Notes under the pieces: model-generated | Seen by the model: only the letters and a program-made list of their open reading frames with translations | What the model was told of the DNA's origin: nothing | Database searches by the model: none | In this document: positions 3,080 through 55,300 of the stretch, piece by piece | How positions within the stretch are numbered: the stretch's first letter is position 1 | Layout of the letters: each line of letters opens with the position of its first letter | Assembly (NCBI GenBank): GCA_950295325.1 | Contig: OX485805.1 | Coordinates: 27,017,501 to 27,081,500, forward strand | DNA length: 64,000 nt | Origin: Polytrichum commune | Taxonomy: Eukaryota; Streptophyta; Polytrichopsida; Polytrichales; Polytrichaceae | Direction of reading: 5' to 3' | Made by a program: the position numbers and the translations under genes

Positions 3080-6000
3080 TCATTCATGACTGGAACCTTG
3101 CTCTTGAAGGTAATCCCCAATAAGACCTGTTTCATGGAAGCTTTTGAGAATGTCATCAAACATTTGTTCAATGCCTATAAAATGGGTGAGACCAAGTTTC
3201 CCAATCTTGGTGGTATCCATCGTGTGGTGAAAGTCATTGCCCTTCGTGTCTTTACACCTGTTCGATTGATGCATGTCTTTTAGATCAACAGGAACTTACA
3301 CAACTACCAGATGTTTGAACACTGATCAGACAGCTCCTCTGCTCATAACTTATACAAAATATACAAAAGCTTGGACATGATTATTTGTTGTAACAAGAAA
3401 ATGCAGATCCTTCAATGGAACATGGTAGTAACAAAATGATAGACTCACAAAAAAAATGTCAGAGGAGAAAGAAGGTGTAATTTAACCTTGAAGCAGTTTG
3501 TAGGTTTGGGTACTTGCGTCGCAACATCTCCAGAATGTCACAGAAGTGTGCAACCTCATTTGAACAAATGTATCGTCCATGTGCCTCTGGCACCTCCATT
3601 GCAAGCAGATGTGCTGTCACTACATCATCAATGTGCACAAAGCCAAGTCGCAGGTTTGGGTACTCCTCTCCCCCTAGCAATGTTCCCCAAGCCAATCCAT
3701 TCCTGGCTATTCAATATCCTCAAATAAAACTCAGGAACATTGCCGTTCAGACTTGACATATGTGCTTTTTGCAGAATTGTTGTCATAGATGGTGAATTTT
3801 ACTGAATGAGGAGAAATTTTAGACTTAGTTTGATACTCAGTTTCGTATTTTCATTGTTGCTGAATGCTCAAACTGAAAGATGCACACGATCCACACAACA
3901 ACGAGGATTTATTCAAAGATGCTGAAGTTCAACAACGGAATGATTTTGGCTTGTCTGACATTGCTTTGTTGTGCAAAAGCAATCAATCTGCAAAGCAGGA
4001 TCTTGTCAGTGTAGATTATCAGACACCACTCCAAGTTAAAAGTATAAATCTTTATCTGGTAAATGAGCATGTTTGCATATTAGGGTACCTGACAGCAATT
4101 TTTGAAGCATTTGGACGCTGCTGGTTGGCACAGGCGAAAGTGAAGCGCCAACGACAAAAGAAGGATTCACAACCACTAGATCAAGGCCTTCTTTTGCTGC
4201 AAACTCGGTTGCCACTTTCTCAGCTAGAGTCTTTGCCACTGCATAATACAGCTGGATGTACACATCAATTGCATGAATTCAGAGCTTCAAACTGGAAATT
4301 TCGTCAGCACAGCAAGCTTTGATTTCTATCCTGCGTATATGAATGTGTTTCTATGTGGAGTTAAAATTTAATACTCGTAAGGATGATGTTTGATCAGATG
4401 ATTAGAAAGAATCCCAAGTGTTGGCAAACTTGATTGCCTCATTCTTTCTCAACTTAGTGTATTTGCCACTGCACAACATAGCTGGATGTAAAGGAAAATT
4501 GCAAACCACCGACTCACATCAACTGCATGACTTGAGAGCTTCACGCTGGGAATCTCATCAGCACAGAGAGTACTGATTTATGACTCTGCAGAAATTAATG
4601 TATTTCTATGTGTAGTTCAATTTTTATACTTCAGATGGTTAGAAAGAGTCTAAGTCTTTGCAAACTCGGTTGCCTTTTTCTCAACTAGAGTCTTTGCCAC
4701 CGCATAAACTAGCTGGATGTACAGGTGAATTGCACTTTAAATTCCAAAGCACCAACTCACTTCAATTGCATTGAATCAGAGCTTCAAGCTGGAAGTTTCA
4801 TCAGCACGGATTATTTTTCATTTCTGTCCTGCGGATTTGAATGCACTTCTATGTGGAGTTTAAATTCATACTCATAAGGATGATGTTTGATCAGATGATT
4901 ATGAAGAATCCAAGTGTTTTGCAAACTTTGTTGCCTCGTTCTCAACTAGAGACTTTTCCACTGAAGATAATAGCTGGATGTCAAGGAAAATTGCATTGAA
5001 AATTGCAAACCACCGACTCACATCAACTAAACGAATTCAGAGCTTCAAGCTGGAAAATCCATCAGCAAAGAAGGTACCGATTTATCATATTCTGCGGACA
5101 TGAATGTATTTCAATGTGGAGTTCAATTATTTTATACTCATATAAGGATGTTCGATCAGATGATAAGTGAGTTCACAACATGCTTCTTGCTTTAGTGGAA
5201 TGGGATATTTGTGCTCACACCTTGTACTCTCGACAATACTCGATGTTGCTCCAAACCGTCTCATCAAGGGGAGGGTCTTTCTCACTTCGGTTGTAGTCGT
5301 ACCGTATAGCCGAACACGAGGATGTCATCACCACGCGCTTCACTGAAGGCGACTTCGTGCATGCTCGTAGCACATTCATGCTTCCTTTTAATGCAGGAGC
5401 TGTCATCGTGAGCTTCAGAAGTAGGTCACATACAAAAGTGACGTATCAGACTAGTTAGGTACAAAGAAGCAGCTCAATGAGTATGTTTGTGCTTTCTGTT
5501 GCAGATCATATGTTTTCTTCCCTAACCCTAGAAAACACGATTTCTTCATTACCACAAGAATTGGAAAGTCCTGTCGAAGTGCTGGCTTCCACATGATCGA
5601 AATATCTAAGGGAGAAGGTGGAAATTCTGGATGTGCAACACATCTCACCAGAATCTTGCCAGTCAGAAATTTCAAGTTGGAACTCCCCGGAATATTCACC
5701 ATGACGAAGAAGAAATGGAATCAAGATGGAATAGCCGGGGTGGCAAGTATCTCCAGTACTCGCTGGCATCACCGTCTTTAGAACTTGGTTTGGAGATACT
5801 AGTAACCCATTTTTAAGAAGCATTAATTTGGTGGAGTTGCTAGCGCGTTATTAGCATTTTTTAGGACTAAATTCTAAGAAATTTTATGAATATTTTTAGT
5901 AGTGAAATTCAATACCTAGGGGATCAGTCTTGGATGGTGATCCAAGCTGTTTAAGAAAAAATGCTTCTGATTGGTTCTAAGAATGACATCTGAAAGTGCC

Positions 6001-7686
6001 AATCTTTTCTAATTTAGACACAAATTGTATCAATGGATTCTTCTCAGTGCCCACTTTCCAAACATGTTGCTCCTCTTTGTGAAATAACAAATCATCAACT
6101 CATTACAAGTATTAGAAATGATTGACAAACTACTGTTCGCAAGGGGAGACTTGTCCCCTGCCCTGGGATGGAATACGAGGAAGACTGGTTGTTAATTATC
6201 CAGGCTACTTGTAGAGCCCATCATCTGTCATTTGTGCAAGATGCGAATTCGAAAACTGACTTGAGTGTTTCTACAGTACCAAAAGGTCGAACAACCATGT
6301 GACAAATGGCCATGTCTGAGGAGCTGTTTTGTGATGTCAAGGTTATATACCGATGAACATTCTGAGGAGAACAGGGAAGAGAGGTGGACCTCAGGATCAC
6401 TATGTAGCCTAAAAATTCTTCAAGCTCACGAAGAAGAAATCGGTATCAAGAAGAAATATAAGGAAGAAACATTGGTAGTTGATCAACCAGGCCACTTGTA
6501 GTCCCTGCCATCTTGTCAATTGTGCAAATGCTAAGATCAAATCTGGCTTGAAAATTTCTACACCAAAAGCTCGAAAGCATGTCACAATAGTGTCATCCGT
6601 GAAGTCTCGGGATCAAACGCCGGGTGAGTCGGCTAAAAAGTGAGTTTGAGAGCGAATTCGTAAAGCCACCTAGTCCTTGCATAGCTTAGACAAAGCTACT
6701 AGGCCTTGCATAGGTCGATCAAGGATTTAGGGTTGCAGGATTCATGGACAGGAACCTATTTTCGATTCTTACAATTCTCTCGAAGTTTCTGCTATTGAAA
6801 GAGGAAGTCCAAAGACTTCCCCCTACTTTCAAAATTAACCTCCAACACAAGACGAACCAACGAGCTTCTAATAAGAATTATAAAAAGTCTCTCAAAGATG
6901 GACCAAACTCTAAGTTTCGGACAACTCCAATGGCCGTGTCAAAAAACAATTTCGTGACTTCAAGGTTCACTGACAGCAGGGAAGAGAGGCAGGCGGACCT
7001 CGGGATCACCATCAGGATCCATGAGCACAGGGCAGGCCGTATGGAAGACCGTGTGTACCCCATGCACGGCATCATCAAAGCTGCCCTCCTCCAACAGGTC
7101 CGCCTTTATGATTTTCAGCCGCTCCTTTGCGCCTGGCAGGTCCCACAAGAACCCTGTCTTGCTCTTATCATCTGCAAAAAAGCGTCACTCCCATCGTCAA
7201 TTGCCCTCAAATTGTAATCCCGATCATTTAAGTGTGCTAAAACCCTATCGAATTGGGTGGCTTCAACTCAAGCCCCTAACCCGGATCGCATGAGAACCCC
7301 GAGGTGGAGCCACCTAAATCCGGAATAGGTACTTAGTGCTCGGATGGGTGACCTTCTTAGCACTTGGTTTGATTTCCGGTGCATCCTATCACTTCTGATT
7401 CACCCATAACTCGAACTCAAAATCGGGAATCGAAAGTAGATTAAACAACACCATAAATCACGCCAGTTGCAACATCGGAGTCATCTTTCTTCCTTCCTTT
7501 CTTTTCTTATCAAATTTGGGAGGGGAGTTAGGCTGTGCAGAAATTTGTTTTACCTGGGACGCGAGCAGTCGTTCGCACCTTGTAACCTCGCTGCAAGAGA
7601 GCGCGAATGATAGATGAAGCAATGAAGCCAGTGCCTCCCGTCACGCACACCTCGGTCGTCGCTGGCTCTAGCGTAGACGTACCCAT
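3080..7686 (-). CDS. Cinnamoyl-CoA reductase / dihydroflavonol reductase-like NAD(P)H-dependent reductase
   Basis: Six exons rebuilt by eye on the minus strand: 7554-7686, 6999-7171, 5221-5412, 4089-4251, 3487-3706, 3080-3257. All borders are GT/AG, phases agree, and the total is 1059 nt (352 aa plus stop), normal for the family. Residues 16-24 (TGGTGFIAS) are the Rossmann nucleotide-binding glycine motif. VFHTACPV follows in exon 2. VVMTSSCSA near 129-137 supplies the catalytic serine region. YYAVAK at 168-173 gives the Y-x3-K pair (Y169, K173). The C-terminus keeps the family pattern DTTKIGKLGL...MFDD...SF. The enzyme would be cytosolic and reduce a CoA thioester or ketone with NADPH in phenylpropanoid, flavonoid or polyketide metabolism. 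The NWYCY signature of true lignin CCRs is absent (K-L-YYAVAK here), so CCR-like, DFR-like or tetraketide-pyrone-reductase-like fits better. Intron 3 holds decayed copies of exon 4. Confidence 0.85.
4199..5166 (-). repeat. Four tandem ~225-260-bp units, each containing exon 4 of the reductase or a decayed copy
   Basis: Units start at about 4199, 4424, 4660 and 4921, each opening with gcaaact and carrying the shared block gctggatgt. The first unit holds the splice acceptor and 5' part of the working exon 4 (4089-4251). The other three lie in intron 3. They keep the acceptor context (acatccag) and a degraded start of the exon. Read on the minus strand, the third unit gives LVYAVAKTLVEKKATEFAKT then a stop. 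The second is broken after VAN, and the fourth has lost the Y-x3-K residues. The array looks like tandem duplication of an intron-exon junction followed by decay. Confidence 0.85.
7325..7390 (+). other. 5S-rRNA-like fragment inside intron 1 of the reductase gene
   Basis: The string ctcggatgggtgacc, followed by ttcttagcactt and ending ccggtgcatcc, resembles the 3' half of plant 5S rRNA, including the GGATGGGTGACC internal control box. Only this part is recognisable. It is therefore a pseudogene scrap or part of a 5S-derived SINE, not a working 5S gene. It lies antisense to the host gene. Confidence 0.35.
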
Positions 7687-7744
7687 TCGTAGCTCTATCT
7701 ACTTCCAAGATTGGGTGACAGCCTAAAAATCGGTTAGTCCTCCT

Positions 7745-8357
7745 CAACAATGCTGGAGTGTCAACCGATCTGCACCAGGTACACCAACGCCAGTCATCAT
7801 CGTTTACGCAAAGGAATTGGTCCTGCTTCATTACCTATATCTTCTTGTAGACACATAGTACACACCTTCCTCAACAAAATATGTACAGATTGCACACTCG
7901 AAAATGTAACAGCAGGTGGACTAACACCGGTGTTCATCATCTACACTACGCAATTTGTCCTGTTTCCTTGCCTAAATTTTCTTGTGGACACTTAAACAGC
8001 TCCCTCAACAAATTAAGCGAAAATTGCACACTTAAAATTCAACAAGCAGGTAGATCAATGCCGGCGTTCATCATTTACACTAAGCAATTTGTCCCGATTC
8101 GTTGCCTATGTCTTCTTGTGCACACATAGTACCCACCTTCCTAAACAGAGCAAGTACAAATTGCACACTCGAAAATTCAACAAGCACGTAGACCAACACC
8201 GGCATCATCATTTACATCACTAAGCGATTTGTCCTGATTCATTACCTATGTCTTCTCTTGGACACATACTACACACCTTCCTCGACAGAATGAGTGCAAA
8301 ATTGCACGCTCGAAAATTCAACAAGCAGGTAGACCAACGCCGGAGTTCATCATTCCT
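7745..8357. repeat. Tandem array, 4-5 units of ~134-144 bp, in the reductase upstream region
   Basis: Anchor catcat recurs at about 7795, 7935, 8069, 8204 and 8348. Each unit carries aattgcacac, cgaaaattcaacaagca and gtagac(c/a)caa blocks plus a cacatagtac-like block. The array begins about 60 bp upstream of the reductase ATG (7686), so it would sit in the promoter or 5' leader. Units differ by scattered substitutions, so the array is not very recent. Confidence 0.85.
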
Positions 8358-8600
8358 GCAGCGGCAAGCTCCTCAAAGAAAAACAAGATGAAGACTAAGT
8401 TGAGTTGCAATTGTAGCCAATCATTTCCTGCGAACTCTTTGCAGGCATCAAGTCAATTGGTCCATAGCTCACTCACACACACGACGCAAGTACAACTCTC
8501 TTGAATACCTATTATGTACGAATTTTATCACACAATTAGGTCCACCCATGTGAAGTGTGAGCAAACACTGACTCGCAGCTTGCCGCAATCTAAAAATTCC

Positions 8601-8622
8601 ACAACAACAACAACAACAACAA
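8601..8622. repeat. (CAA)n microsatellite
   Basis: About seven uninterrupted CAA triplets. The cysteine-rich antisense ORF over this tract is an artefact of the repeat. Confidence 0.9.
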
Positions 8623-8639
8623 GCTAGCTGTGCAGCATG

Positions 8640-9270
8640 ATTGCCTTCTTCTTCCAATCGAGGTTTTCACCTGCAGCTAATCACAAAAATCGCTCAAAAG
8701 CTGAGGATCTTCTACACTTAAGTACAAGCTTACCCTTAAGATTTGTGTGTGAAGATGATCGGCGGAAGAAGGGTATACTTATAATTGTGAGTCTGATGAA
8801 TGTATCGCTACGTTCACGTTCAAAGTACCTACCTACACATGATGATGTGAATCAACAAAAGATGATGAGCAACCTACCCTTGCATCTACTCAACTTTCAA
8901 CGGTCAACCTTAACTCCTCGACTCTTGAATTAGTCAACCTTTGATTAGTTGTAACCGGGGTGTGGGTTCCACGAATTTTTTATGGTTTTACGAGTCTTTG
9001 CATGGTGGTTGCACAATGTATAATGAAGAATGCCATTTGGTCTTTTGTTTGTTTATCCAAATTTAAAGTTGGCGATAGGTTGCAAGTTTTTCCCTAAAAA
9101 TTGGAGTTAGGTCACAAGGGAGGAAATGTCATGGTTGATTTGGTGGGGACAACATAGGTTGTCTATGTATACATTTGTTTTTCTTTATAAACTTCTCGTA
9201 TATAGGGGGTTTAATTTCATGGTGACCCACGCACGTCATTTAGGTTTCCAATAAAGAGTTCACCCACGTT
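8640..9270. other. Intergenic DNA, no gene seen
   Basis: AT-rich sequence between the reductase upstream region and the Harbinger remnant. The left end of that element probably lies here, but I could not find a clear inverted terminal pair or target duplication. Confidence 0.3.
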
Positions 9271-9271
9271 C

Positions 9272-10020: not shown

Positions 10021-10063
10021 AGGTTTTGTGCTCTACCCTCCTCTCTTGAATTGTGGTTTCTCT

Positions 10064-11464
10064 TCAAGTTCTTTGTGTACTCAAGTGGCTTGCTATATGG
10101 TTGGAGTTTTGAACACATACTAGATAGTCCAAAATGTCCTCCCTCGTCATTTGTCCTTCTAGTAAAGTTTTTTCTTTGCTCACAAGACCTATTGGTCTTG
10201 GAGGTTGAAAACACTCTTCTTCGTCTCTACGTAGCAAGTCGTTGTCGTACATTGGTGGAAGATGGCAATCCATTAGAATTTGATCCAACGTCCGGTCTTT
10301 GCTGGCAAGCAATATGTTGTGCAAGACACAATAACAATGCACAACTGTAGGTAAAAAATCAAGTTTCAGTGATGATTTAGTTCCAATCTCTTTAAACCTT
10401 GCCTTCAATATGCCAAATCCTCTCTCAACGCTCATTCGCGTGGAGGAATGTTTTCGATTGAACCAAGCCTCCTCTTTTGAAAGAGGCCGCCCCATGGGGC
10501 CCATCTTGAATGGTGTAATGCACCAACTCAAGAGCGGGTACCCCCGGTCTGTCACAATATAGGAAGGAAATAGAAGTCCAATTTTCCAAGTCAATGGATT
10601 GTCGTGAAACCCACCCATTGTTCCTTCTTCCACTTTGCGGTAAAACTCCGTACTCTTGAAGTGCGCACTGTCGTGTAGGGATCCTGGCGGGCCGGTGTTG
10701 ATGGAGGTGAAATAGCACTTGCTATTCACAACACCTTGGAGTAAGATAGAAAATGACTTGTTTTGGTTGCGATGGTCAGCCGCCACAATAGTATTTGATG
10801 GCGCCGCAACATAAATATGCGAACCATCTATAGCACCAATACAGTTTGGAAACCATTGCTTGGACTGGAAGGCAGACGCGATTCGCATCAGCCTACGGCC
10901 AGCCGGCCATGCAATTAAGTGTCTAAAGTGGTTGCTTATGGCCGAGCAAACTTGCCGTAATACCGGTATACCATGTACAGTGGATTTGCCAAGTGCGGCC
11001 TTGTCGGCGACCAAAGGTATAGAGACACCATGCATGAGCTTGAATAGTGTAACCACTACTTTCTTCTCTACTCCGATAGGTTGTCTCCAGTGGGTATGTT
11101 GGCCTTGTATGAAAGGTCATAGGTCGCAGACCAGCCTGTCGAAAGTCCTCCTTCGCATTCACAGGATATCGTAGAACATGTCGGGCGTATAGATGTTGAA
11201 AAGATATTCTTCGAACCAACATGTCGATCTAGGCTTCACATATCATTTTGCATCTACAACCCCAATGTGCCAAGCAAGGAGGTCAAAAACTTGCTTCACA
11301 TGTGGGTGTTCTAATGCATCGTCCTCGTGGTCATGCCCCAATTGCTTGTGCAATGACATATACACATCGTCTTCATTCCTTCTCCTCCTCAACTTATTTC
11401 TATGTGCAAAATGATCCTCACTTGCTCCGTTGATGTTATATACATTGAAATCATAACCACGCAT
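10064..11464 (-). pseudogene. PIF/Harbinger DDE transposase, broken by in-frame TGA codons
   Basis: One frame runs from an ATG at 11464 to the stop at 10064 (467 codons) and is interrupted by three TGA codons near 11241, 11161 and 11119. At least two fit CGA-to-TGA changes, the usual decay of methylated CpG. The intact C-terminal 330 codons carry the family features: GAIDGSHI (first D), VTDRGYPLLSW (second D), and ERGFGILKARF (E). An N-terminal helical region FDRLVCDL sits upstream. The protein would cut and insert at 3-bp target sites. It is not functional as it stands. The Myb/SANT partner lies convergently on the plus strand. Confidence 0.9.
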
Positions 11465-12512: not shown

Positions 12513-12890
12513 AAGCTACACACAACATCGATTCATAGGAGCCCGGAAAAGAAGAAAGAACCAATAAACTACCACAAAAAACAAATCAATGGAGAAAAAT
12601 CATGAACCCAATTTGGATTGCTGAAATTCATACTCGTGTTGGAACAAGTGCGAATAGTATGCGTAGCAAAACAACTTGTACCCTTCCCAATAATCCTCCA
12701 CTCTGCAAACATATATCAAAAAAATCACAAACCAAAAATTCGAACATGTTGACTTCACGGGGCACTTTCATAGCATGCAGACCCACAATCGAGTGAGACT
12801 GGACAGCGGGTTTTTTTGGGTTGAGGTTTTGGCCACTGTGGTTTCCTAAACTGTGGTTGAGTCAAAACAACCTTCTGGACAAGATCATGT

Positions 12891-13094: not shown

Positions 13095-13102
13095 GACCAT
13101 GT

Positions 13103-34054: not shown

Positions 34055-35758
34055 TCACTGTGAGGGATCCAAATTGTTGTCACTTTTCAATCCATCTTGT
34101 TGACTCGACTTATCACACGATCCCTCGCTCATGCTGCCTTGTGAATTAATCAAGTGTTCAGTAGTGACATTCTTCACGTGATTGTCACCTGAGAGGCCGG
34201 AGCTCACAGGAGTTGCGGAGCTATTTAGACTTACTTGATGATGATGATGATGACATGGACCGATCCCATTGACATGATCAATGAAGTGACCGCGCGGATG
34301 ATAAAAGCTTGGGCCTCGAAAACGGCCAAACACCGGCGGTGGGCCAAGCGGTAGACTAGCCGGAGTGAGGCCACGGTGATCGAATTGGGCCGAACCGGCA
34401 AAACCATCCAAATTGGTTTCACTGGTTGAGCCGAATATTGGAGCAGAAGTGCGAAGAGGATGATTTTTTGACTCATCATTAGAAGGATGGTGATGAAGGT
34501 CGGAATACGGAATTGGAGGCTCACAAATTGGGCAGGAGTTCATAGGAGGTTGGACACCAAGGTGGTGAGGATTGCGAGAAATTTGAGGTGGTCCGTGACT
34601 AATCTCGCAGGCAGGCCAGGGTAGCCCAAAAGGAGGCCAAGATGGAGGTGGTGGTCTACAAAGAATTTGGCAATCACCAGTATGATGACATGGACCGATC
34701 CCATCGACATTAATGGCATTACCGCAATGATAAAATTGTGGGCCTCGAAATCCGCCCAAAGACAGTGGGAGGCCAAACGGTAGGGCTGGAGCAGGGCCAT
34801 GATTTAAATGGTGGAGCGAAAAAATTCCATCCAATTTGAATCCACCATCGTTACATGGAGGCGTGCTGTTGGAGTCAAATATTGGTGCAGGTCCAGCACG
34901 AAAAGGACAATTCTTCGTCTCATCATCAGAAAGATGATAGTAAAGATGAAAAAAAGGAATTGGAGTCTCGCAGATTGAACATGAGGGAGGATGGACACAA
35001 GCGTTGCGAGGAATTTGATGCGGTCCGTGACAAAAGTTGCAGGGAGGCTGGGGTAGCCCAAAAGGAGGCCGCGATGGAGGTGATTGTCCGCAAGTTCGAT
35101 GATGAGGAGGAGGTGGTGGTGGTGGTAGCAGTGGTCCACGAAGAATCTGATAATGGTGGGGATGGCCTAGTGGCGATGGAAATTTTAGCTCAACTCGAGG
35201 CGGAGGCGGAGGCGGAGGCGGAGGCGGGGGTCCACAAATCCAACAAAAATTTCCAAGATTGGGAAGATTGTCGGGGTGGTGAAATTGGAAAGGGGGGAAC
35301 ATCGGAGGTGGGAATTCTCGGCTCTCGCCAAGATGCAGTGCGAGATCTGCAAAAGGAGGAAGAGCAGGAGGATGACTAGGTAATTGTACACATGTTTGAT
35401 CACAATCTGCGAAAGCATTGAAATTCGGAGCCGTGAAAAATGTGCTGGGAGTTGGCGGATGAAAAGGAACAAAAGAAGCTGATGGTGGCCAAGATTGACC
35501 AAACAGGGACGATCCCGTGGGATCCACCGGACTCGAACTCGGACTATGATGAATTAAATCAAGCGGGCTTAACGCAGGAGCATTAAACGGTAGTCGGCAA
35601 TGTGAGCGGCCAAGATGGCCGTTTGGAGGAGGACAAAATGCAAAAGGGGGCGGTGGGGGGTGGCAATATTGGTGATGGTGGGGAAATCCACTACCACAAC
35701 CAGGACCGCCACCCACCGCCACCGGCATCGGCATCGTGGTGTCTGTGACGACTGTCAT
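34055..35758 (-). CDS. Pro/His-rich protein with internal duplication and repeated C-x2-C pairs
   Basis: Uninterrupted frame of 567 aa from the first in-frame ATG (35758). The frame stays open upstream past a GTG at 35812 to a possible acceptor (gtttcag) near 35828, so a 5' exon is possible. Proline and histidine dominate, with long Pro runs near residues 176-187 and 212-218 encoded by a GGCGGA-type repeat at 35197-35229. Residues of about 231-356 and 376-503 are two diverged copies of one unit: PPFGLP, C-x2-C, DDE/NDE, F(R)G(P)xFYH, NGIGPCHH. Three C-x2-C pairs occur: CWIC (172-175), CSIC (260-263) and CPIC (409-412). The last two are followed by His at a fixed distance (C-x2-C-x11-H), which could bind metal. 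The C-terminus is Ser/Asn-rich and polar. There is no signal peptide. I know no matching family; a nuclear or metal-binding disordered protein is a guess. Confidence 0.65.
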   Translation of the reverse strand: MTVVTDTTMPMPVAVGGGPGCGSGFPHHHQYCHPPPPPFAFCPPPNGHLGRSHCRLPFNAPALSPLDLIHHSPSSSPVDPTGSSLFGQSWPPSASFVPFHPPTPSTFFTAPNFNAFADCDQTCVQLPSHPPALPPFADLALHLGESREFPPPMFPPFQFHHPDNLPNLGNFCWICGPPPPPPPPPPPRVELKFPSPLGHPHHYQILRGPLLPPPPPPPHHRTCGQSPPSRPPFGLPQPPCNFCHGPHQIPRNACVHPPSCSICETPIPFFHLYYHLSDDETKNCPFRAGPAPIFDSNSTPPCNDGGFKLDGIFSLHHLNHGPAPALPFGLPLSLGGFRGPQFYHCGNAINVDGIGPCHHTGDCQILCRPPPPSWPPFGLPWPACEISHGPPQISRNPHHLGVQPPMNSCPICEPPIPYSDLHHHPSNDESKNHPLRTSAPIFGSTSETNLDGFAGSAQFDHRGLTPASLPLGPPPVFGRFRGPSFYHPRGHFIDHVNGIGPCHHHHHQVSLNSSATPVSSGLSGDNHVKNVTTEHLINSQGSMSEGSCDKSSQQDGLKSDNNLDPSQ

Positions 35759-35828
35759 TGTTTCTGTCAACGTAATCCGTGCACGTAATGAACAACCAAC
35801 AACAGCGTCCACAAGATGATTCTCTGAA

Positions 35829-36400
35829 ACTCACAGAAACAAAGACAAATTAAGCCGAGCTCAGGGAGATGTATAGTAATCAGTTCAATTGTGAATGATT
35901 TATTCAACAATAAAACTCATCACACCAACCCTAAGATAGAATTGATGAGCACACAACAATGATGGGTCTTGGATTCTTCTGTGCGATGTAAGGAAAGATG
36001 ACAAGAGGAGCGAATCCGAAGATGATGAATTCAGGATGAGATGGGTATGTTTTTATAGCAGAGATGTTTTTACAGGGAAGAGTGCAGCCCAAGGGAAAGG
36101 CTTACCAGGCAAGGCAAGGTAGCAAAGTCACCGCCACGGCCTCATTGCTAGGTAAGTTGCAATCACGGGATAATCATTTCATGAGAAAGAGAAACTTTGC
36201 TTTGATAATAAGTAAGATATTTTTGTATCCTAGCTTGACTATCTAACATTTGTTCGATGTGCTCTAAATTACAGAGCAAACTCTGTTCCCAAGAATCTTA
36301 CAGCATAACTCGCACGCCCTGACTGTGTGTTGCTGTTGGTGACGAGCCATGAATGTCATAATATTACTCAACATGCAACTCTTGTTTTGTGGATCCTCAT
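35829..36400. promoter_or_regulatory. Upstream region of the Pro/His-rich gene
   Basis: Minus-strand upstream DNA. Read on the minus strand, a pyrimidine-rich tract precedes gtttcag near 35828, consistent with a first intron. No further exon or promoter element could be fixed. Confidence 0.3.
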
Positions 36401-40746: not shown

Positions 40747-40777
40747 AAAAAACCCTAAACCCTAAACCCTAAACCCT
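40747..40777. repeat. Interstitial telomere-type repeat (CCCTAAA), about 4 units
   Basis: Four consecutive aaaccct units of the Arabidopsis-type telomere motif follow an A run. Too short to be a telomere; it is an interstitial tract. Confidence 0.9.
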
Positions 40778-42218: not shown

Positions 42219-45200
42219 ATGGCAATGGCTATGGCGAAGGGTGGGGTTGCAGGCAGCAGCTACTGGCAACTAAATTACACTTGGACTTGGATTTGGATTC
42301 TTCTTGTAGGTGTCACGAGCGGAATTGTAGTTCTGCGACTTCGGCGTCAGAATGTTGATAATTATCCTCCGGGACCCCGGCCATGGCCGCTTGTAGGAAG
42401 CTTGCTCTCCCTCTCGATGTCGGATCCTCCTGAGGTCATGTTTGCAAAGCTAGGGGAGAAGTATGGAGGATTGGTATTCCTATGGATGGGTATGAAGCCA
42501 ACGGTGGTGATATCCAGTGCTAAAATGGCCATGGAGTTTCTGAAGACACATGACCTCGCATTCTCCAACCGGCCGAAGCGGATTGTCAGCAAGTATGTCT
42601 CCTTCAATGGCACATCGTTCATCTCAATGAACGCAAGTAACCCTTATTACCAGCAACTGCGGCGGATGTTCGTGATGGAGCTTCTGTCACCAAAGAAGAT
42701 TGCAGCATCTCTGAGTATCCGTCAGGAGCAGGTCGGAATTCGATCTCTAATTCCCACTTGGTTTCGAATTGTTCTTGCTATTTTTTTGAAACTCCAGTGC
42801 TTCTGATTTGACGGAGGAACCTATAAAGTTGAGTACGACTTGATTGCATAGTCGTAGAGTCGTTATAAACATAAAGTGGTTCATGTTGCAATCAAGAATT
42901 CTGTTCTGGAATGAAGCAATTGATGAACGACATTTCATCGGCATGGCGCCTATTTATTCCATGGGCTCTCAGTCATCGAAGGTTGATAAAACGATCTCTA
43001 ATTCTCACTTGGTTTCGATTGTTTTTGCTATTCTTCTGAAAACTTCAGTCCTTGTTATTTGACGGAGAGGAGCCTATAAAGTTGACATATGAACCAGGCA
43101 ATATTCGAGCAAGAGATTACCCGTAATGCTCAGTTCATTACTCGAATTACATAGCACTAGAGTCGTTATGAAGACAAAGTGATTCATCTTGCATTCAGAA
43201 TCCTATTCTGGAATGAATTAGTTGATGAATGACATTTCAACCAATTAGCGCCTACCCATTCCATGTGTTCTCAGTCATCGAAGGCTGAGAATACGATCTC
43301 TAATTCTCCCTTGGTTTCAATTGCTCTTTGCTATTCTTCAATTGCTTGTATTTTGACGGAGGAGCCTATAAACTAGAGATTTGAACCAGGCAATCTTCGA
43401 GCAAGACCCGTAATGCACAATATTTGTGTACAAACCATTACTCCCTTACATAGTAGTAGAGTCGTTTTAAACACAAAGTGATTCATGTTGCATTGAGAAT
43501 CCTATTCTGGAATAAATCAGTTGATTAACGACATTTTATCGGCATGGCGCCTAGTCATTCAATGTGAGATCAGTCATTGAAGGTTGAGAATTCATTACGA
43601 ACTGGAAGTATATCCAGATGCTGAAAATAGTGCATAGCATACAACAACAAAAAGCTGCTATTCTTCTGGAACTCCAATTCTTGTGATTTGAGGAGCCTGT
43701 AAACTTGAGAATTTGAACCAGGCAATCTTCGAGCAAGAGATTAACCATAATGCACAATTATCTGTACAATTCATTACTCCACTACATAACTTTAGTAGAG
43801 GGGCCGTTCCTAGCATTCTTAAGCATGTGTAAGGACGTTCTCTTTCTACTCTAGCCTCAAGAATAAATCCAAGAATCGAGTCAAGGTCCTTGATTACCTG
43901 CAGGATTGCCAGGTATTGTCAAGTGGCAAGCTCCCATTAGTGGGCACCTCATTGTTACTACCTTCAGACCAAGTTTTCTTCCATCTACCAAGATTCAACT
44001 TAAAAGAAATTGCCAAAATGAATCTCATCAAGTGTAGATAATCTCCAAGATGCTTATCTAGGGTGAACAGTCACTAAACCAATTTAAGAATCCTATATTA
44101 TGATGGCACAAAGTGATTCATCCTCTATTCAAGACCTATGTTGAAATGAATCAGTTAATGAACGACATTTCATCGGCATGGCGCCTAGTCCTTCAATGTG
44201 CGCTCAGTCATTGGAGGATGAGAATTCATTACGCAATGAAAGGTATATGTGCAGATGCTGAAAATGGTGCATAGCATACAACATGAGTCAGAGGCAGGGC
44301 GTAGCGTGAACCTTACGACGTCATCCTCGACCCTAGGGATTAATCTCTCATTATGCTTGATCTTTGGAAGGAGATTCTTTAACATGGTGGTCCCTGAGGA
44401 GGCTAAAAGTTTCTTGGTCTCATTTAAAGAGGTATGGTCGTCATCCTTTAGAAGCTACCATGAGAGTGGTGCTTAGATTGTGTCGTCTTGAATTTGATCT
44501 TTAAGTTAGCATCCACTTGGTCATGGCGATTCTGGATATGTGTTAAGTGGTGGTAATGTAGATGAATAAACACTTGCAATCGGTGAACATCGGTGACTTC
44601 ATCCCCGCCTTGCGGTGGCTCGATTTGCAACACGTGGAGCTCAAGATGAAGGATACTGAAGTGGAGTTGCGAAGATGTTTGGAGAATCTAATTGACCTCA
44701 AAAGGACGGAGATGAGCAAGTGGTCTCGGGAGGAGATTGATGATGGTGCCAATGAAAGGGACATTATGAGCAAGCTCTTGTCTCTTGAAGGCGAAGAACG
44801 CTTGAGCAAAGACCAGCTTCAGTCCGTTGTCTTTGTGAGTACCTAACTTGCCCTTCAGTTCGGCCTCAGATCTTAATACCCTGACTCTCCACAACTTGCA
44901 ATGATCTCCTGAGGGTTCACTTTCCTCACGGAAAGAATACACAATTTCTCTGCCCAGAAAATCCTCGAGTTTTGAATGAGTTCATTTATTGCTGATACTT
45001 AGGGGCGAAGGTAATATTTCTGGACATCTATTGTTACGTTGCAAGAGTGTCAACTATTCCATTGGGCATCGATGATCTCACAAAGGTTAGACTATCTGTT
45101 TCAGGTAGTACTTGCTGCAGGGTGACTGACATTCCATAACTTGCAATGATCTCCTGAGATTCTCTTTTCCTCATGGAAAGATTACACTTCTCTTACCGAA

Positions 45201-46266
45201 AACTTCTCGATTTTCACATCTCCTGACAGACTGCATGCTTGAAATCTGTACTCAACTAACTTCTCGAATAATTGCTATAGATAATTTATATTATACTTCC
45301 GGAAGTCGAACTCCGGGAGTTGATGGTGAAATAATCGCAGTTGGGTATATCATATTAATACGGTCCCTTTTTGAGACTCCCTGTGCCTTTAGTTTGAATT
45401 ACAGATGTTTCATTGGAACAACAAACACCTTTATTCAGGTGTGAGCTCTCTGTTTTATTTTGTAATATTTAGCTGTACAAAATGATTTCTATTCCAGGGG
45501 CTTTTCTGGGAAGTTGAATCATTCGCTACTTTATGTAGATATCCCATAATCACATCGAACGGGTGGGGGAAGGTAATATTTCTGCACATCTGTTGTTACA
45601 ATGCAAGATTGTGAGCTAATCCAGAGGGCCATTGATGACCATCTGTACCAGATACTACTTGCTGCAGGGAGTGACTCGGTGGCAAAGGGCATCGAACGAG
45701 CCATAGAGGAGCTTATGAAACAACCACATCTAATGAAGCAAGCAGTAGATGAGCTTGACGAAGTGGTGGGAAAGACACGAGTGGTTGAAGAATCTGACAT
45801 ACCTAAACTCCCATTCCTCCAGAACGTTGTGAAGGAGACGCTCCGTCTGTACCCTCCAACACAGCTCCTGGTTCCACGCACAAACGTTGAGCAATGTCAT
45901 GTTGCAGGCTACACCATCCCAGCAAATTCCACTGTGATGATCAACTTGTACGCATTGAGCAGAGACCCTGAATTCTGGGACTCCCCGAAGTTGTTCTCAC
46001 CCGACCGGTTTGCAAACTCCACACTGACTGTGCAAGGAAGTGATTTCCATTACATCCCTTTTGGCTATGGCAGACGAGGTTGCCCGGGCCTCAACCTGGG
46101 CATGGCGAACTTCCAGCATGGCCTTGCTTTGCTTTTGCAATGTTTTGACTGGAGCTTCATCAATGGCGTGCCTTCGAGCGATGCTTACACTGCCTGGAGG
46201 TTGAAACCTGATGTTTGCGTGCATGCCCAGTTGCGAATAGATCCCCATCTCTTGCAGCAGTCCTAG
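42219..46266 (+). CDS. Cytochrome P450, A-type (CYP71 clan-like)
   Basis: Four exons, all phase 0: 42219-42731, 44255-44431, 44562-44834, 45652-46266, totalling 525 aa. An N-terminal membrane anchor (WTWIWILLVGVTSGIVVL) and the PPGPRPWPLVGS hinge place it on the ER surface. The I-helix reads LLAAGSDS, with the oxygen-activating D-S pair. K-helix KETLRLYP gives E-x2-R. FSPDRFAN is the P-x-R-F motif. The haem loop is FGYGRRGCPG, with its Cys as the iron ligand. It should be a haem mono-oxygenase using NADPH-P450 reductase; the substrate is unknown. Oddities: the C-helix W-x3-R is Y-x4-R-like here (YYQQLRR), and the usual W after I-E in the I-helix is R (GIERAIEEL). Introns 1 and 3 contain copies of exon edges. 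The acceptor for exon 3 (tgtag) is the least certain border. Confidence 0.88.
42741..44254 (+). repeat. Tandem units of ~250-300 bp filling P450 intron 1, one with a copy of the exon 2 start
   Basis: The block cgatctctaattc recurs at 42741, 42992 and 43294. Blocks gagtcgtt, ggcatggcgcct and cagtcat(c/t)g recur in later units to 44220. Near 43605-43650 a copy of the exon 2 acceptor region (atatccag) is followed by atgctgaaaatagtgcatag. That is the first 20 nt of exon 2 with one change, after which the copy diverges. Confidence 0.85.
45005..45130 (+). repeat. Copy of the exon 4 acceptor region inside P450 intron 3
   Basis: aggtaatatttctg and catct(a/g)ttgtta occur here and again at about 45570-45600. 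The copy ends with tttcaggtagtacttgctgc, matching exon 4 (accag|atactacttgctgc), then agggtgactga, out of frame. A neighbouring block (acttgcaatgatctcctgag) is itself duplicated at about 44895 and 45138. Confidence 0.8.
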
Positions 46267-49200
46267 CTAAGGGTAAGGTATGTGGGTGTTATTCGCTTCG
46301 CTTTGTCATGTTCTCCACCGTCTACCGATTGGATTTACACAACGAAACTTGTGCTGCACTAGCCAATCTACGATGAAGCATCAGTGGATTCGGATCGGGC
46401 CTCCCCTGATTTAGTTTTGGTTATCAGAAGTGCATGTTTGTTGATTTCTTCAACCCGATACATAAGTCCTCCCAATTGAGTTCATTAATGAGTGTGCAGC
46501 AGTTGATAAACTGTGAAGACATAGTCCAATGTCTTTTTAAACATGTGTCTTTATGGTGTTTTTATTTTTGATCCACATCTAACCACACACGAATCAAATT
46601 TAGGTGTCCGATTAAGAAAGATAACTAAATAACACCTGCACACCTTATGTTCTTAAGAAGAGTTATAACTTGTTAGCTAAGGCTTGTCTTTGAGAATGGA
46701 CATTGAAAAAACACCTTGTGATATCAATAGAGTTATCCTTGAAAGGTCAAGATAGAGGGTGAAACACAAGGAAAAAATCTCAAGTTTCAATGTATTTCTA
46801 GTCAGCTATAGCTTGCCTCTCTTGTGTTAGGATATGGTAAGTAAACACAGGATTCAAAGGGTTTCCCTCCTATTCTTGACTTCACTGGAGTTTAGTCACG
46901 AGTTTAACTGTTTTACTCTCGGAAACACGTCAATTGAGCTTGGGAATCTCTTAGGAGCCACGAGGTTGGTGGACCCATCATTATCTAGAACCAGAAGAGT
47001 GTCCAGAAACACACTAAGACAAGATACACCTCCAAACACTGGATGGTTGCTTTTGGCTTTTTTAGGATAAATGTAATGAGATTGGACTATATGCTCAAGA
47101 TGTTTATAAACACCATTCTAGGTTCAGTTGTTGACATGATTGGGAGGACCTATGTGATCACTTAAAAGTGAAAAAAGGATTTTCACTTTGACCTCCGATA
47201 ACTTTTGCATTTGAACTTTGATTTTGAAACTTGAACTGAATATTTGTGTGATTCACAACTACAAACTTGAGGTGACAATTCCCAAACTGATCCAATAGTC
47301 AGTATTGTCTACAAAGTTGGAAGTGCCCACAATGGGGCTGCATACTTTACTGGCTCAAATCATCCTGCACTCACCTTAATTCCCCCTCAACTTCCTCTCG
47401 TTTTAATGGAACTGGGTTTCCAATCCTACCAACTCTGTCAACCTATGCCTTACATATAACCAAATTCCTCATGTTCCATCCAAGATGACAGTCTTTTTGC
47501 ATCAGCTTGCATTAACTTCACAATGATTCCGCTCTGATGCTGCTGTCATTATCTGATGTCACTTCAAGTTACAGATGAAGTCATTGCAATTAGGCACTTG
47601 TATTCTCTCGAATACCTATGTTGCTGTCTCCATTGTCAGTTTCCAAGTCGCTCATACTAATAAGAATTGGGGAAGAATCAAGTGACTAAATTCATTGCAT
47701 TTTACTTGTCACGATTTCTCCCCTTCTTACCATCACCTGCTCGACTCTCAGTCTCAGCTCATACACACCTTGATTATGTACTTACTGGGAGTTTCTTTTC
47801 TGCAGTCCTGTTGCTATTTGTGTGCTGCAATTTTGTACACTACAATTCTCCAGCTACGACGTTCCTTTCAGAATGTTTCACAGTACTCCCGTCCTGATGA
47901 TTCAAACACCTCTTGTGTAGATTGAAATTACATGGCTTACGGTTTAGGTACTGGTTCCACTAACTAACTTACAGCACCTCATGCTGGGTTAAATTAACTT
48001 AAGCTTGACTCAACATGGGTCCAAGTGAGGTCCAGGTACAAGCTGGAGGGAAGACCCTGCTATTTTGAGCTCCTAAAATGAGATAATGTATTTATAGAAT
48101 TGGTTACCTTCTTTTCAACCCAGATTTGTCTGATTGATAACTTAATCCCAATTTGAAGACCGTGGCATGAACTTCACCATGAGTTCACCATGACACAATA
48201 TTCGTGGAAAGACAAAAGTGGGCAAATGTCTTGGGTGCAATCCTACCTCATAATGTGACATTGGAGTCTTACAGTATTACGGCATGTAAGGTGCCCTCCA
48301 GTTCCAGAGGACATGCCAGGTGGGCTCCCACAGCCTTTCAAGGCCAACCTAAAGAGTTTAAGGTATGTGCGCCCTATTGTAAGCACATCTAATTCCACAA
48401 TCAATTTTGGCCGTTTGATCAGATCAGGGATTGTTTGATCCAGTTAGCAACTATGAATCATCAAATTGTCGTTTCAAGTTTCAGAATCGGATCTGAGATG
48501 CAAGAAAACCTATGAGATCAAGGAAACTTTTTCTTTCTTTAAATCTTGAAACCGTCACAAAGACCCTCCCAATTTCGTGTTAACTATAAAACCTGAACCA
48601 GTGTCTATAGTTTGACCTCATAAACTGTCATAACACGTGTCTTTTGGTGTCCAGTCTTCACTTCAAACCTAAGTATTATATCACTCAAATATAGGTGTCC
48701 AATTAAGAAGCGTGCCACCACATAAGGCCTACACACTTTATTTTTTGCAAAGAGGTGCCAGCGATGGCAGTGGTGCCCTTTCACTCTCAACCGCCTTCCT
48801 TACTTCCTTACTTTCCTTGATATCAGCTCTCCCTTCATTCCACATGCCATTGATGCATCAAAGTTTGCTCAACCTCGCATTCTGAGCAACGGTGCAGGGT
48901 TTTGTATTTTAGGGTTAGGGCAAACAAATCATCGGAAGCGAGACACTCATCGGCTCCATCTTTGGGCCTCCTTCAGTTGGAGCACACTTAGCACATGCAA
49001 TCATCTTGGGTTTTGAGGAGGAGCTAATTTATGGTTCTGCTACTACTGGGGTATGGGAAGTGGAGAGGTTCGGAGATTCCAAGGAGAGGAGAACCTGTTG
49101 GCAGCGGGGCTATGATGATGCAGCTTTTGAATGGCACGACTGTGATGTAGGATCAGAATGATTTTTGATGTTCAACTTCGCTGACAGAAGCTGGGAATTA

Positions 49201-49341
49201 TTACCAAATTTGGCGATGTTGGAAGGAGAAAAACATCACCATCACCTCTGGGCAGAGTTTCCAGAGTTGGTGGGGGAACTTGCTTGTATTGCGCAATTGC
49301 CAAAGCGATAACATTGGTGATGCGGGAGTAAACCTATTGCA
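46267..49341. other. Intergenic DNA with dispersed repeat fragments
   Basis: 46525-46645 and 48630-48745 carry the block (t)aggtgtcc(a/g)attaagaa followed by acacctta/acacttta. 47070-47340 carries the motif gattggactatatgctca, acttttgcat and ggaagtgcccacaat, shared with 60115-60360. No gene is seen between P450 and the F-box gene. 48780-49340 is probably the F-box gene's promoter and leader. Confidence 0.5.
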
Positions 49342-52300
49342 ATGAATGAGCTCGCAATGAAACCGGTGGGGGCAGCGGAACCCTCCACCCAAATGATGGT
49401 GGTGTTGTCACGGGGGAAGGTGACGAACTTGATGATAACTCATATCACAGACCTTCCTGCCGTGGTTTTGGGGTCAATATTGGCCCGTCTCAATGACCCG
49501 GTGGATGTCGCAGCTGCACTTTGCACATGTAAACTCTTCTGGACTCTCGCTCGCACCGCCCCTTTCCAGCTTCGCTTAAGACCTAGACAGCCGGAAGAGC
49601 CTCCAGGGGGGAATTCCGAGGATTCCCTGCAGAACAAGTATGCTATTTCCACAGAATTTTCAGATTTTTTTTCATTTCTTTGGCAGAGTTCAATTCTAGC
49701 ATCCGACATGTTTTGCACCTTTCCCCTGTTGCATCTCATTATGACACATCACACTGACCTCGAAGACAAGTAATGAGAATTGATGGTGCTCCTCATTTCT
49801 CTTGGATTATGATGTGTTGCAGTGGAGTCTCATGTGACTGGTTAGTTCTTATATGGTTGATTCTTTCAAAATAGATATACTTGGAGCTTTTAGTGTGCGA
49901 GAACTCAGCTCAATTTTGTGTCAATTGTGCCAATGAAGAAGGCTAGGTACATATGCACCTGTTTCATGTATACATTTCGCCTGTTGCATCTGATTAGATT
50001 ATAGTCTCAACCAACAGAGAGATTGAGCGGAAGATTAGTCATGAAAATTGATGGTGTCCTCCATTTCTCTTGGATTAGGTACATGGTGCATTGGTGTCTC
50101 ATGTGACTGGTCGGTACTTCATTAGATTATTTCGAAATAGATATACTTGGAGGTTTTCGTGTGAGACAACTTTTCCATTACACAAGTAGCTCAATTTTGT
50201 GTTAACAAGATTGCAGAACAAGTATGCAACTGCCTCTGAAAAGTTATATTTTGTCACTTCTTCGCCAGAGTGCAATTCTGGCAACCAACATGGTGCATAC
50301 CTTTCCCTGTTACATCTCATAATGTTTTAGTCTCAGGCGACAGACAGACTGAGCTCAAAGACACTACATGAAAATTGATGGTGCCCTTCATTACTCTTGG
50401 ATTAGGTGTATGGTGCAGTAGAGTCTCATGTGACTGGTCGGTATATAAGTTTTGAAATAGATTTACTTGGAGATTTTTGTGTGAGACAACTCTGCCATTA
50501 CATGAGTAGCTCAATTTTGTATTGATGGTGTCGATGTAGAAGGCGAGGTACATGTGTATATGTTGGGGAATGTGATTTTCTTGCACTAGAGATTGGTATT
50601 ACAAGAGGTTCAGTATTGAGCTGTCAATCTTAGCCTGTAGCTTAAAGTTGATGTTTTAGGGATGCTTAAATGTGAGAACTCCAGTGTTATTCAGACAATC
50701 AACGTCACAATCTTCAGGAATGTTGATTTTAGAGTTTCAAGGTCATTAAAATTTTCATGATCACCTTGAATGGAGAATTTCATCCATTGCTAACAGGTAT
50801 TCGGATTCAAATCCAGTGGCAGATACAGTCCACAGATTGCAGGATTTTGGGTTAGAGCTGCTTTATGCGGAATCCGGAGACACATGTGTGGAACCCGGGT
50901 GCTTGACGTAGCAGGTTGCTCACTTGTTGATGAAGATGTGGGAACATTACTGGCAGATTTACAAAGTCTGCAGCGTCTCATACTCGACGGTTGCCAAAAA
51001 TTGTAACCTTCATTCCTTCAGGATGTCATATCAGTTTTTCCTTCCCTCTAGGTTTATGATACTTGCAAAGGTTAATTCCTCTTCCTTGTTGCCCATGTGA
51101 AGCCACCATTACTTTGGTAGGAGGGCAGTGTTGTCCTTTTCAGTTTCAATAAACATGAATGTACCACATAACTTGAGTAATCCTCTCCTTCTATGTAGGA
51201 CTGATTAAGTGAATCATTTGTTTTATGTTTAATCTCATGTTATTGGGGTCTAATTGAAGCATGGATTGTATAGGACATCTGCGGTTGCGGATATGCTTGT
51301 GGCATCTATAAGGACGGGACCTTGCAGTATAAGTCTACAAAGGTGCTTCGGACTGGGACCTGTTTCAGCCAGAAACTTGTTGGTGGCTGCTGGTTCTGAG
51401 GGATCTAGATTGCATTGCATGCTGCTCAGTCATTTGGATAGACTAGATGTTCCTCGAATGTCCCTATCCCAAGATATTGATCAGGAGAAAGGAAGTGAGA
51501 AGGAAGTTGCTAGAAGTGACAGTGAGGATCTTGCAAAGTGTGTGAAGAGCATCGACACTGGAGCTGGTTTACGAATTCTTGCCCTCAACAATTGTGTTGG
51601 CCTTGGTGCACCTGAATTAGCCTCTGTGGTAAGTCTTAGAGCTTTAGTTCAATAGTACAGAATCAACAGTGAGGTAGCCCAACATGGTGGTTTTAGAAAT
51701 GATGTCCCTGAAAAGCTGTTATCGTGGGATACTGTATAGCAGGAAGTTAATTATCACTTATAATGAGCCCTGATGAAGTGGTACTTTGTATAATTCTCTG
51801 CTTGCAGCAGGTTGAAACAATCTTCTTTGTTGATGACAGGCAATACTATGTCCACAGCTTGAGCTTTTGCTCTTGGGTGGTTCTGTTGAAGGCTTGGGAC
51901 TGAGCAGGGCTGAAGTGTTGTCCCAAGAACAAATTGCTGCAGCAGCATCTACACTCATAAGAACGATTGAGCTTCTCCCAAGGCTGCGAGTGCTTGAACT
52001 TACATTTTTCACTTCTGTCGTCGTTGAGGCTGTGAGGTGAGTGAGATGTTCTCATTACATTATTGATGTATTCTTTACTGTTTGTGGTCTCTAATGGCTA
52101 CATATAGTGAACGTTGCTAATGGAGAAAGGTGTACACTGGACTTCAAAGCTCGTAATAGTAATCATTTCCTAAAAATTCTGAATCCTTAGGGGAACTACT
52201 GTCTAAGATATTTGTCAGTAAAACCTTCAATATGCTGTTTCCTATAATGCAATATCTTTTGATGTTGTTTTTAAGGAGGAACCTTTTTGCTTCAGGACAA

Positions 52301-55300
52301 GGGGTTTGTCTTAGGGGTGTATTCCTACCAAAGAGCTCAAACATCAATATGGAAACAGCATCTTCTGGCTTACGTAGCAGCTGAATATTCAGACCCTTTT
52401 TCTTTAGCACAGTTTAAAATTTTTCCTGAACATGGAAATGGTTGAATATTGCTCTAAAGAATTCTAATTTAGGAACTCATGGGATAAGAGGCAAATTCCA
52501 AGCCCATTCCACTAGTCTTTCATTGACTTCAGCTCTGTAGTCAACTTTATGTGGAGCAGTACACTGTCTGTTTTTAATGGGTAGGTATTGAAGGGGCGCT
52601 GACGTTTTAGGGTAGCCTTCAGCTCAATAATGGAAAAATATGCCCCAACCTGGACTAAAATTTAGACCTGGATAGGAAGTATGAATTTTGTTCTGAACTT
52701 GAGAATGTCATGCATTCCTATTGATTTGGAACATACCATGGTGCCTACAGAGAACAGGATCAGAGGAAAATACACATTTGGGACTTCTGTGATGAAAGTT
52801 CTGTAGCAGCTGCAGCTTGGATTCTGGATGATTTGAAGGAGCTAAAGCATGGCAGTGCCGTTAACAATCTCTTGCGGAATATTGTGGGCCCTGTACATTG
52901 TGCAAGCACCTCACCGGGACCAGATACCACCCCTATTCTATTCAGCAAAAGTATTAGGGCACAATTTTGGCAGGACGGGTTAACATTGTCTGAATGTCTT
53001 GGCACTGGATCCTTTTCATATACAAGCTTCAAGGACAACACTGGAAAGTTGAAATCTTTTTTGTCTATTTCACCAAGTGAAGACAGATGGGAGTCTCTGC
53101 CAGATGATGTTGCCCTTGCACTGCGTGGGGCAGCAAATTGCTCTGACATAAGACGAAGAACACCCTTACACATGGCAGCTGCTCGAGGTGATGTGCCGAT
53201 GATAGCCAGTCTACTCACAATTGGAGCTGCCACAGTAGGAATGAAAGACTCATCAGGAGCTACATCTCTTTTTGTTGCAGCTGAGTCAGGATATGCACAT
53301 GCATGTGAACTTCTTTTGCAGGGTGGGGCTGATGTTTTGGCCAGTAACCGAGCGGGAGAGACCCCCCTCTACATTGCAGCCCTAAGAGGGCACTCTGCTG
53401 CCGTGGGTATCATGCTTGCTCACTGCCATGAGTGTGGGGTGAATTGGCAGGATGCAGATGTCTATGGTATGCCCCTCCTACCCCATATTGTACCCTCTTT
53501 AGGAGGCCGGAATTTTGCGAGAAGATCAATGAAAATGTACTCTGGGACTGGACTCCAATGTGAGGACCAGGGTGACAGATATGGGAGGAGGTGTTTCCCA
53601 TCCTGCCTATGGGAGCCGGCCAGTGGTGGCTCTCATGGGATTCAGGTGGCAGTCTGTCTACCTGCTTCTTAAAAGTTCTTTCACTACCATCAGAATGGCT
53701 GATTTGTAAGCTCCTGATGTGTTAACAAATTGGTCTCTAGAGGTCTCAGTTGACTGCAAGCACATGCACCCTTGAGTTCCAGAATTCAGGCTAGTGTGTC
53801 AGCAACCAATGTGTTTGTTTCAGCTTCCACTGAGATGCACTGGAAAGTTTATCAAAAGCAACCTATCAGCAGTGGAAGTTGTGATATTATTTGCAGAACA
53901 GCAACGTTCTTGCAAGTTGTTGTATGTCGTAACTTCTCTCAAGCCACAAAATTAGCAACTCGCAAGTGCATTATTTACTGCTACACTCACAGTTCGAAGT
54001 TGAATTCAGATATCTGAAATATAGGGTCTTCTGTATTCAATGGGAACTTAGGAGACCTGCTTGTCCAGTTGAGTCAACCAGATGGAATGACTGCATAAAG
54101 GACACAGGGATACACCATAGTTTCCTTCTCAATTCTCTTGGATACAAGAAGAGCTCTCCATGTGCTCGTAGTGTTTCATGAGTTGTATGTATCAGCAGCG
54201 GAAATTGTGGAATTCATTGCAGAAGAGCAATAGACTTGCAAATTGTTGTATGTTGTAGCTTCCCTCAAGCTCGTCTTTTAGGTTGAACTGAACTTCAGTC
54301 TTGAGCTTGTGGAAACCTATAATATCCAACAACATGCAAGTACGTTGTCTACCATTATTCTCACGGTCAGAAGTTAAAGTGTTGAGATTTTAAATAGCTG
54401 CAATCTAGGGTCTTCTGTAATCAATCGGAACTACAAGGACCTGATACATACAACTCATGAAACATTATGAGCTGATACATAATGTTTCATGAGTTGTATG
54501 TACCAGACCTGGCTATCTAGTTAAAGCAACCAGATGGGAATGACTGCACAAAGAAACACCGTAATGAGCTTCTCAAGTCTCTTTGTTCCACATTCAAGGA
54601 AAGCTCCCAGGGCAATCTCCCTATGGTCATAACGATATTTTTTGAGTTGTGTGTGTCAGGTGATGGATGGACTCCTCTCATGGCAGCAGTGGTCGCGGAT
54701 CGTAGAGATGTGGGAACGCTGCTACTCTGGGCTGCGGGAGCTGAATTGGGGTTGGGTTCTACCCAGGAGGGGCAGCCTGTGAAGACGCTCATGGAAAGCA
54801 TCAGTGTTTCTGAGATGAAGAAGCCGCAAGTGAAAGTGAATGGCAGCAAAAACTTGAGGATTATGACTCCACCTCAGCTACTTGATGTACAAAACCGGTA
54901 TGGACAGACTGCACTACACATTGCAGCCCAGAAAGGCTCAGTCTGGTTTGTGGAAAGCCTACTGAGTGCAGGAGCATTGGTGGATGTTCAAAACTCATAT
55001 GGTCTGCGTGCACTTGATGTGGCCAAACAGAAGAAGCAAAAAGCTGTAGCTGATATCCTTAGGGAGTGGGAAGGTCAAGGTGGCAAAAGTGAACTCACAG
55101 ATGAAGCCACAGTGGGGATGAAGAAGTCCACCAGGAAATCGCGGAAAAACAAGGGGAAAACTTCCAACGGTCCCAGAAATCAATCACCTCTCAACCCAAC
55201 CCTAGATTGTGTTGTTAGTCCACTTTGCTGTTCCTCATCAGCAGGAGACAGAACAGTTTCAATTAATGAAAACATTTCTGAACCCCTTGAGGCGATTGCC

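Follow-up and report, generated by a model that had tools for sequence, protein, structure and literature searches.

Local tandem duplication is common in introns of the plant Polytrichum commune, and the junctions between introns and exons are hit by it no more often than by chance. We report this from a stretch of 64,000 nucleotides (nt) of contig OX485805.1 (assembly GCA_950295325.1, positions 27,017,501 to 27,081,500 of the forward strand), called the window below, and from 121 loci outside it in the same genome, which totals 407.8 megabases (Mb) in 64 contigs, the seven largest having 42-78 Mb. Three genes of the window are at issue, a dihydroflavonol-reductase-like gene, a cytochrome P450 gene and an F-box/ankyrin gene, for which an earlier note had described splice junctions copied into the introns and had proposed a genome-wide tendency to duplicate such junctions. 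The wider part of that proposal stands, in that introns do duplicate locally in tandem (28 introns in the 121 loci), but the preference for junctions does not survive the comparison with random placement, and the idea of a junction-specific process is thereby corrected. We consider it likely that the arrays are local tandem duplications of intron DNA, with a breakpoint falling by chance a few tens of bases inside the exon.

On the whole, tandem copies are present in all five introns named by the note, as self-BLAST and self-alignment both confirm, and their drift is borne out by identities of 69-84% within these introns. The repeat matches have E-values from 1e-107 to 4.5e-5 in the self-BLAST of the whole window. 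The splice edges were set from homology and splice consensus, and the introns were self-aligned one by one with the edges marked. The introns and their arrays, with positions counted in the window and unit lengths in base pairs (bp), are as follows:

4252..5220, minus strand: reductase intron 3, exons by 4qtz homology and by paralogs of the gene that share its exon 3/4 break
4198..5167, minus strand: tandem array of reductase intron 3, about 4 copies of about 250 bp, 69-81% identity, by self-BLAST and self-alignment
6178-6305 and 6465-6587, minus strand: tandem pair of reductase intron 2, 74% identity, shift about 285, entirely intronic
42761..44274, plus strand: P450 intron 1, by self-alignment, donor choice uncertain
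42736..43800, plus strand: donor-side array of P450 intron 1, units of about 250-300 bp, 70-78% identity, with a further part at 44098-44283
43472-43646 and 44107-44283, plus strand: acceptor-side pair of P450 intron 1, 84% identity
44835..45651, plus strand: P450 intron 3, by self-alignment
45003-45127 matching 45565-45676, plus strand: acceptor-edge copy of P450 intron 3, 72% identity
44881-44972 and 45126-45214, plus strand: purely intronic pair of P450 intron 3, 80% identity
49638..50796, plus strand: F-box/ankyrin intron 1, by self-alignment, with F-box-like and ankyrin matches on the exons
49628..50564 (copies 49628-49963 and 50212-50564), plus strand: array of F-box/ankyrin intron 1, about 3 copies, 70-75% identity
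53467..54659, plus strand: F-box/ankyrin intron 5, by self-alignment
53864..54583 (53864-54139 and 54190-54583), plus strand: duplication in F-box/ankyrin intron 5, by self-BLAST and self-alignment

By BLAST, copies in four of the five introns take in an exon edge, as the note had it, the exception being F-box/ankyrin intron 5. The reductase gene lies on the minus strand and has 4qtz as its best PDB match (E 9e-25); its intron 3 has the edges AGTACAAG^gtgtgagc and acatccag^CTGTAT, and the array extends 54 nt into exon 4, with the acceptor AG present in all three decoy copies. The pair in reductase intron 2 is a further array, beyond the five introns first named. Directly upstream of the first exon of this gene, a separate 134-bp unit is repeated about 4.2 times (window 7776-8354). 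In the P450 gene, which is on the plus strand and has Pfam p450 matches on two exons, the donor-side array of intron 1 starts 25 nt inside exon 1 under the preferred donor, CACTTG^GTTTCG, and GT is present in both decoy donors; an alternative donor, CAGGAGCAG^GTCGGA at about 42732, is possible, with which the array would begin just within the intron. The acceptor-side pair of the same intron enters exon 2 by 9 nt, an additional second crossed edge, and the copy in intron 3 takes in 25 nt of the haem exon, the decoy AG being kept in both. The F-box/ankyrin gene, also on the plus strand, has strong ankyrin Pfam matches and an F-box-like match of E 5e-4, under the curated cut-off; the array in its intron 1 starts 10 nt inside exon 1, and the decoy donor GTATGC is kept. 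In its intron 5, the clear repeat ends 77 nt short of exon 6. On the intron side a weak collinear match runs on toward the acceptor (shuffle p 0.003). On the exon side the match lacks significance (p 0.08), and there the reading of this intron as an exon-edge copy is not supported.

Outside the window, the 121 loci were picked by gene family with their introns unseen beforehand, and comprise 53 P450 genes and 4 reductase paralogs, 9 CCT chaperonin and 31 kinesin genes, and 24 peroxidase genes. The peroxidases were added as a second enzyme family once the CCT and kinesin genes had proved array-poor; they were taken from about 37 gene regions delimited by eye among 134 matches, and those excluded are mainly near neighbours or intron-poor genes. 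Local direct repeats in the loci were detected by blastn self-comparison at bit-score thresholds of 48, 45 or 42, differing by scan, and dinucleotide shuffles of the sampled loci (the window apart) give zero self-matches at these thresholds. By self-alignment, no local repeat is found in intron B of the peroxidase locus L111 or in F-box/ankyrin intron 4 of the window. Three kinds of matches were excluded from the counts: those of L013, which lie 4-5 kb apart, the array of L016, which stands before the start codon and in no intron, and the matches from one intron to another in L111 and L114. In L016 this is a direct repeat of 170 bp (1415-1584 and 1915-2084, 88% identical) upstream of a P450 gene, one copy of which ends beside the start codon. 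In the peroxidase loci L111 and L114, introns B and C of one gene have stretches of 68-78% similarity, perhaps a dispersed repeat or an exchange between introns.

Overall, the 28 array-bearing introns are distributed unevenly, with 12 in the 57 P450/reductase loci, 2 in the 40 CCT/kinesin loci and 14 in the 24 peroxidase loci, where 14 of 49 introns bear arrays. The CCT/kinesin introns are short, with a median of 257 nt (62 introns flanked by exon matches, from 26 of the 40 loci), and this shortness may be why so few of them bear arrays. Across the listed arrays the copies have 67-97% identity, showing that duplications of differing ages are present. The most striking array, which with those of L064 and L119_C is among the youngest, is that of intron B in the peroxidase locus L115 (L115_B, positions 1620-1870), with five units of 49 nt, 93-96% identical, each ending TGTTTTGCAG; the TGTTTTGCAG of the last unit is the true acceptor. 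After the repeated AG comes TAAGG or TAAGA, which gives the unit border the look of a donor as well. It is suggested that local tandem duplication helps to build long introns in some gene families of this genome.

Among the 34 array-bearing introns of window and sample, 7 have an array that crosses a junction, the window contributing 4 of its 6 and the sample 3 of its 28, and the exon part is 8-54 nt. The three sample crossings are L056 with 8 nt, L064 with 14 nt and L100_B with 32 nt. Donor-side crossings are those of P450 intron 1, F-box/ankyrin intron 1, L056 and L100_B, and acceptor-side crossings those of reductase intron 3, P450 introns 1 and 3, and L064. The copies, their positions and their divergence are direct observations, and the gene models put the true junction of the crossing arrays at the outermost copy. 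For comparison, the 27 arrays whose edges are known on both sides were each placed randomly within their own intron and an exon margin of 60 nt; 7 sample arrays with an unknown donor stand outside this test, one of which (L064) crosses. The 27 arrays have 6 crossings against 10.5 expected (p 0.024), the 21 from the sample 2 against 7.0 (lower-tail p 0.007), and those of the window 4 of 6 against 3.5. The expected number for all 27 is 7.7 with a margin of 30 nt, 10.5 with 60 nt and 12.8 with 100 nt. Under more permissive alignment, L003 extends over 7 nt of its exon and the array of L115 comes right up to its junction, which would give 4 of 21 against 7.0 expected. An excess of junction copies, whose absence the note had named as refuting its proposal, is thus lacking in this material, which is a sample and not the whole genome.

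The position of the array ends shows where these duplications stop. For the 61 ends whose edge is known, the 60 nt next to the junction contain 17 ends in the intron and 8 in the exon. None lies 61-250 nt into an exon, though some edges have less than 250 nt of exon in the sequence. The comparison of exon positions 1-60 with 61-120 is 8 to 0 (p 0.008). In the crossing arrays the exon depth is small, 0.03-0.21 of the unit length (Fisher p 0.0009, with manually entered unit lengths). Copies reaching deep into exons are absent and have presumably been purged; the P450 loci L061-L097 contain just about 150 nt of the haem exon, and deeper exon copies there could escape detection.

We propose the following course of events, which we consider likely. 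A segment of about 50-330 bp would be copied head to tail through slippage, unequal exchange or break repair. The outermost junction would still join the old exons and leave the messenger RNA (mRNA) unchanged provided that the inner copies are ignored, and under that condition the duplication would be nearly neutral, the old mRNA still being made. Each inner copy would present only a short stub of exon with AT-rich intron behind it, without the change from AT-rich to GC-richer sequence on which plant splicing depends, and for this reason would stay silent. Long exon pieces would instead be taken as exons and be lost by selection. The arrays would diverge later, and their chief lasting effect would be longer introns. 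A review of plant splicing gives the introns of plants an AT content 10-15% above that of exons and holds AU-rich sequence to be essential for intron definition (PMC2682935). Here, the G+C content (GC) of the peroxidases is 0.52 for exon matches and 0.40 for the gaps that separate them. In the 60 nt after acceptors the GC is 0.45-0.57 for seven true sites and 0.35-0.48 for seven decoys, with overlapping ranges.

Several observations weigh against this explanation. Local repeats cover 52% of the seven large introns of the window but 5% of the sequence outside the four marked genes, a difference that the proposal would account for only if repeats between genes are overwritten at a higher rate; for the peroxidase introns the value is 12%. 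Two sample arrays end almost at an acceptor, L115_B at -1 and L077 at -5, which is rare under random breakpoints. The choice of a 60-nt margin was made with knowledge of the deepest exon part, 54 nt. Finally, GT or AG is kept in 13 of 15 aligned inner copies, where the remaining dinucleotides in these alignments lead one to expect 10.5 (p 0.12), and a slightly higher retention is the opposite of purging. The first two observations, the window's roughly tenfold repeat cover in large introns and the ends within 5 nt of an acceptor, together with the four crossings among six array-bearing window introns, can be held to favour a junction hotspot, in which a process linked to splicing or transcription, such as breaks or R-loops at exon-intron borders, copies the junction preferentially. 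The placement results speak to the contrary: crossings fall below expectation in the whole set and in the sample alone, and do so even with the 30-nt margin (6 against 7.7), and the array ends have no surplus on the exon side. Junction-targeted duplication shows no excess over the random-placement null, and we regard a hotspot as quite unlikely.

The retention of GT and AG bears also on whether the copies were retained for use, in alternative splicing, nested splicing or regulated intron retention through decoy junctions. That the copies could supply decoy splice sites, as the earlier note suggested, is plausible with 13 of 15 dinucleotides kept. The five units of L115_B with their common ending would fit such a use, and the amphioxus globin paper says that such copies could be cryptic sites (PMC3087553). 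Against it, the retention is not significantly above that of the neighbouring dinucleotides, and neither preservation nor purging of decoy sites can be claimed from these counts; moreover, the sequence after inner acceptors is GC-poorer than the true exon starts, and the copies diverge as much as the remaining array. Retention for use seems to us improbable. A broader version would make introns of this plant lineage privileged sites of local tandem duplication and have ordinary genes hold near-perfect decoys (L115 with five identical 3' sites spaced at about 50 nt), a measurable fraction of which is used or tunes splicing. We see this as unlikely, but if it were true, a plant genome would have in its junction arrays a lasting supply of new exon boundaries.

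That the repeats are transposable-element fragments inserted near splice sites was considered from the dispersal of the units. From the P450 intron 1 unit, a stretch of 94 bp recurs at 10 other genome places among the matches listed, and the similar introns B and C of L111 and L114 could be counted on the same side. The array units of the reductase and F-box/ankyrin genes, however, have no genome match outside their own arrays, and on this ground a transposon origin is rejected for two of the three units searched, the P450 unit being dispersed in part. For the P450 matches the direction moreover seems reversed: the three places fetched carry captured exon 1 with the start of intron 1, two of them over about 350 bp at 91-94% identity and the third over about 170 bp at 94%. 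These dispersed matches (window 42493-42855; L122, L123 and L124) seem to be a gene piece captured by a mobile element. Kinesin-domain matches lie about 2-4 kb from 5 of the 10 listed places, and the element with the P450 piece may carry several gene fragments, as a Helitron- or Pack-type element would. We hold an origin of the arrays from transposable elements to be very unlikely.

The birth of the introns from exon duplication (the AGGT model), in which introns are built of copied exon sequence, has on its side that introns 1 and 2 of the window P450 gene sit in stretches uninterrupted in several paralogs (the paralog L018 has an intron near the place of intron 1, but in a different phase), yet it is hardly credible, because the reductase exon 3/4 position is common to paralogs and the peroxidase positions recur across genes, making those introns probably older than their arrays, and because the exon part of each crossing unit is so short; as a general cause it was dropped, the P450 gene excepted.

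The arrays have counterparts among known systems. They resemble the amphioxus 'mirages', tandem units across the 5' or 3' intron-exon border, many with AG/GT kept, for which the authors report or suggest normal splicing (PMC3087553); PMC3902484 belongs to the known cases compared as well. In the features tested, our arrays match these mirages except for often longer units. The crossing units here are mostly about 100-300 bp (measured as shifts), against 10-160 bp in the cases of the globin paper, and the copies are mostly diverged, like the PGBD5 case and unlike the other mirage cases. The host here is a plant, unlike amphioxus, and one genome here offers both junction arrays and many purely intronic ones for comparison. 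In the potato RNA-dependent RNA polymerase gene, a tandem duplication over an intron-exon boundary gave a new intron (PMC4974935); that case likewise concerns a plant with base composition as part of the explanation, whereas our copies stay, per the gene models, within the old intron. Intron gain by tandem duplication also yields splice-site copies from duplication inside a gene, but as cited it involves exonic segments or whole introns, and only exon edges are copied here. In the literature searched, mostly without subscription journals, such arrays are not described as a general feature of plant genomes. The kind is therefore already known from amphioxus, and what is new is its frequency in a plant and an apparent limit of exon length, suggested by exon stubs of up to about 50 nt with none longer seen. 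These introns offer a natural experiment, in which a plant spliceosome chooses one junction among near-identical copies in one intron.

The window has some other features besides these genes. An open frame for a DDE transposase lies at 10067-11116 on the minus strand (Pfam DDE_Tnp_4, E 1e-28). A proline/histidine-rich open frame of 591 codons is located at 34055-35830, also on the minus strand, with an internal duplication of 410 bp and no Pfam match at E 0.01. In addition, four perfect units of AAACCCT, the plant telomere repeat, stand at 40750-40777, within the chromosome arm.

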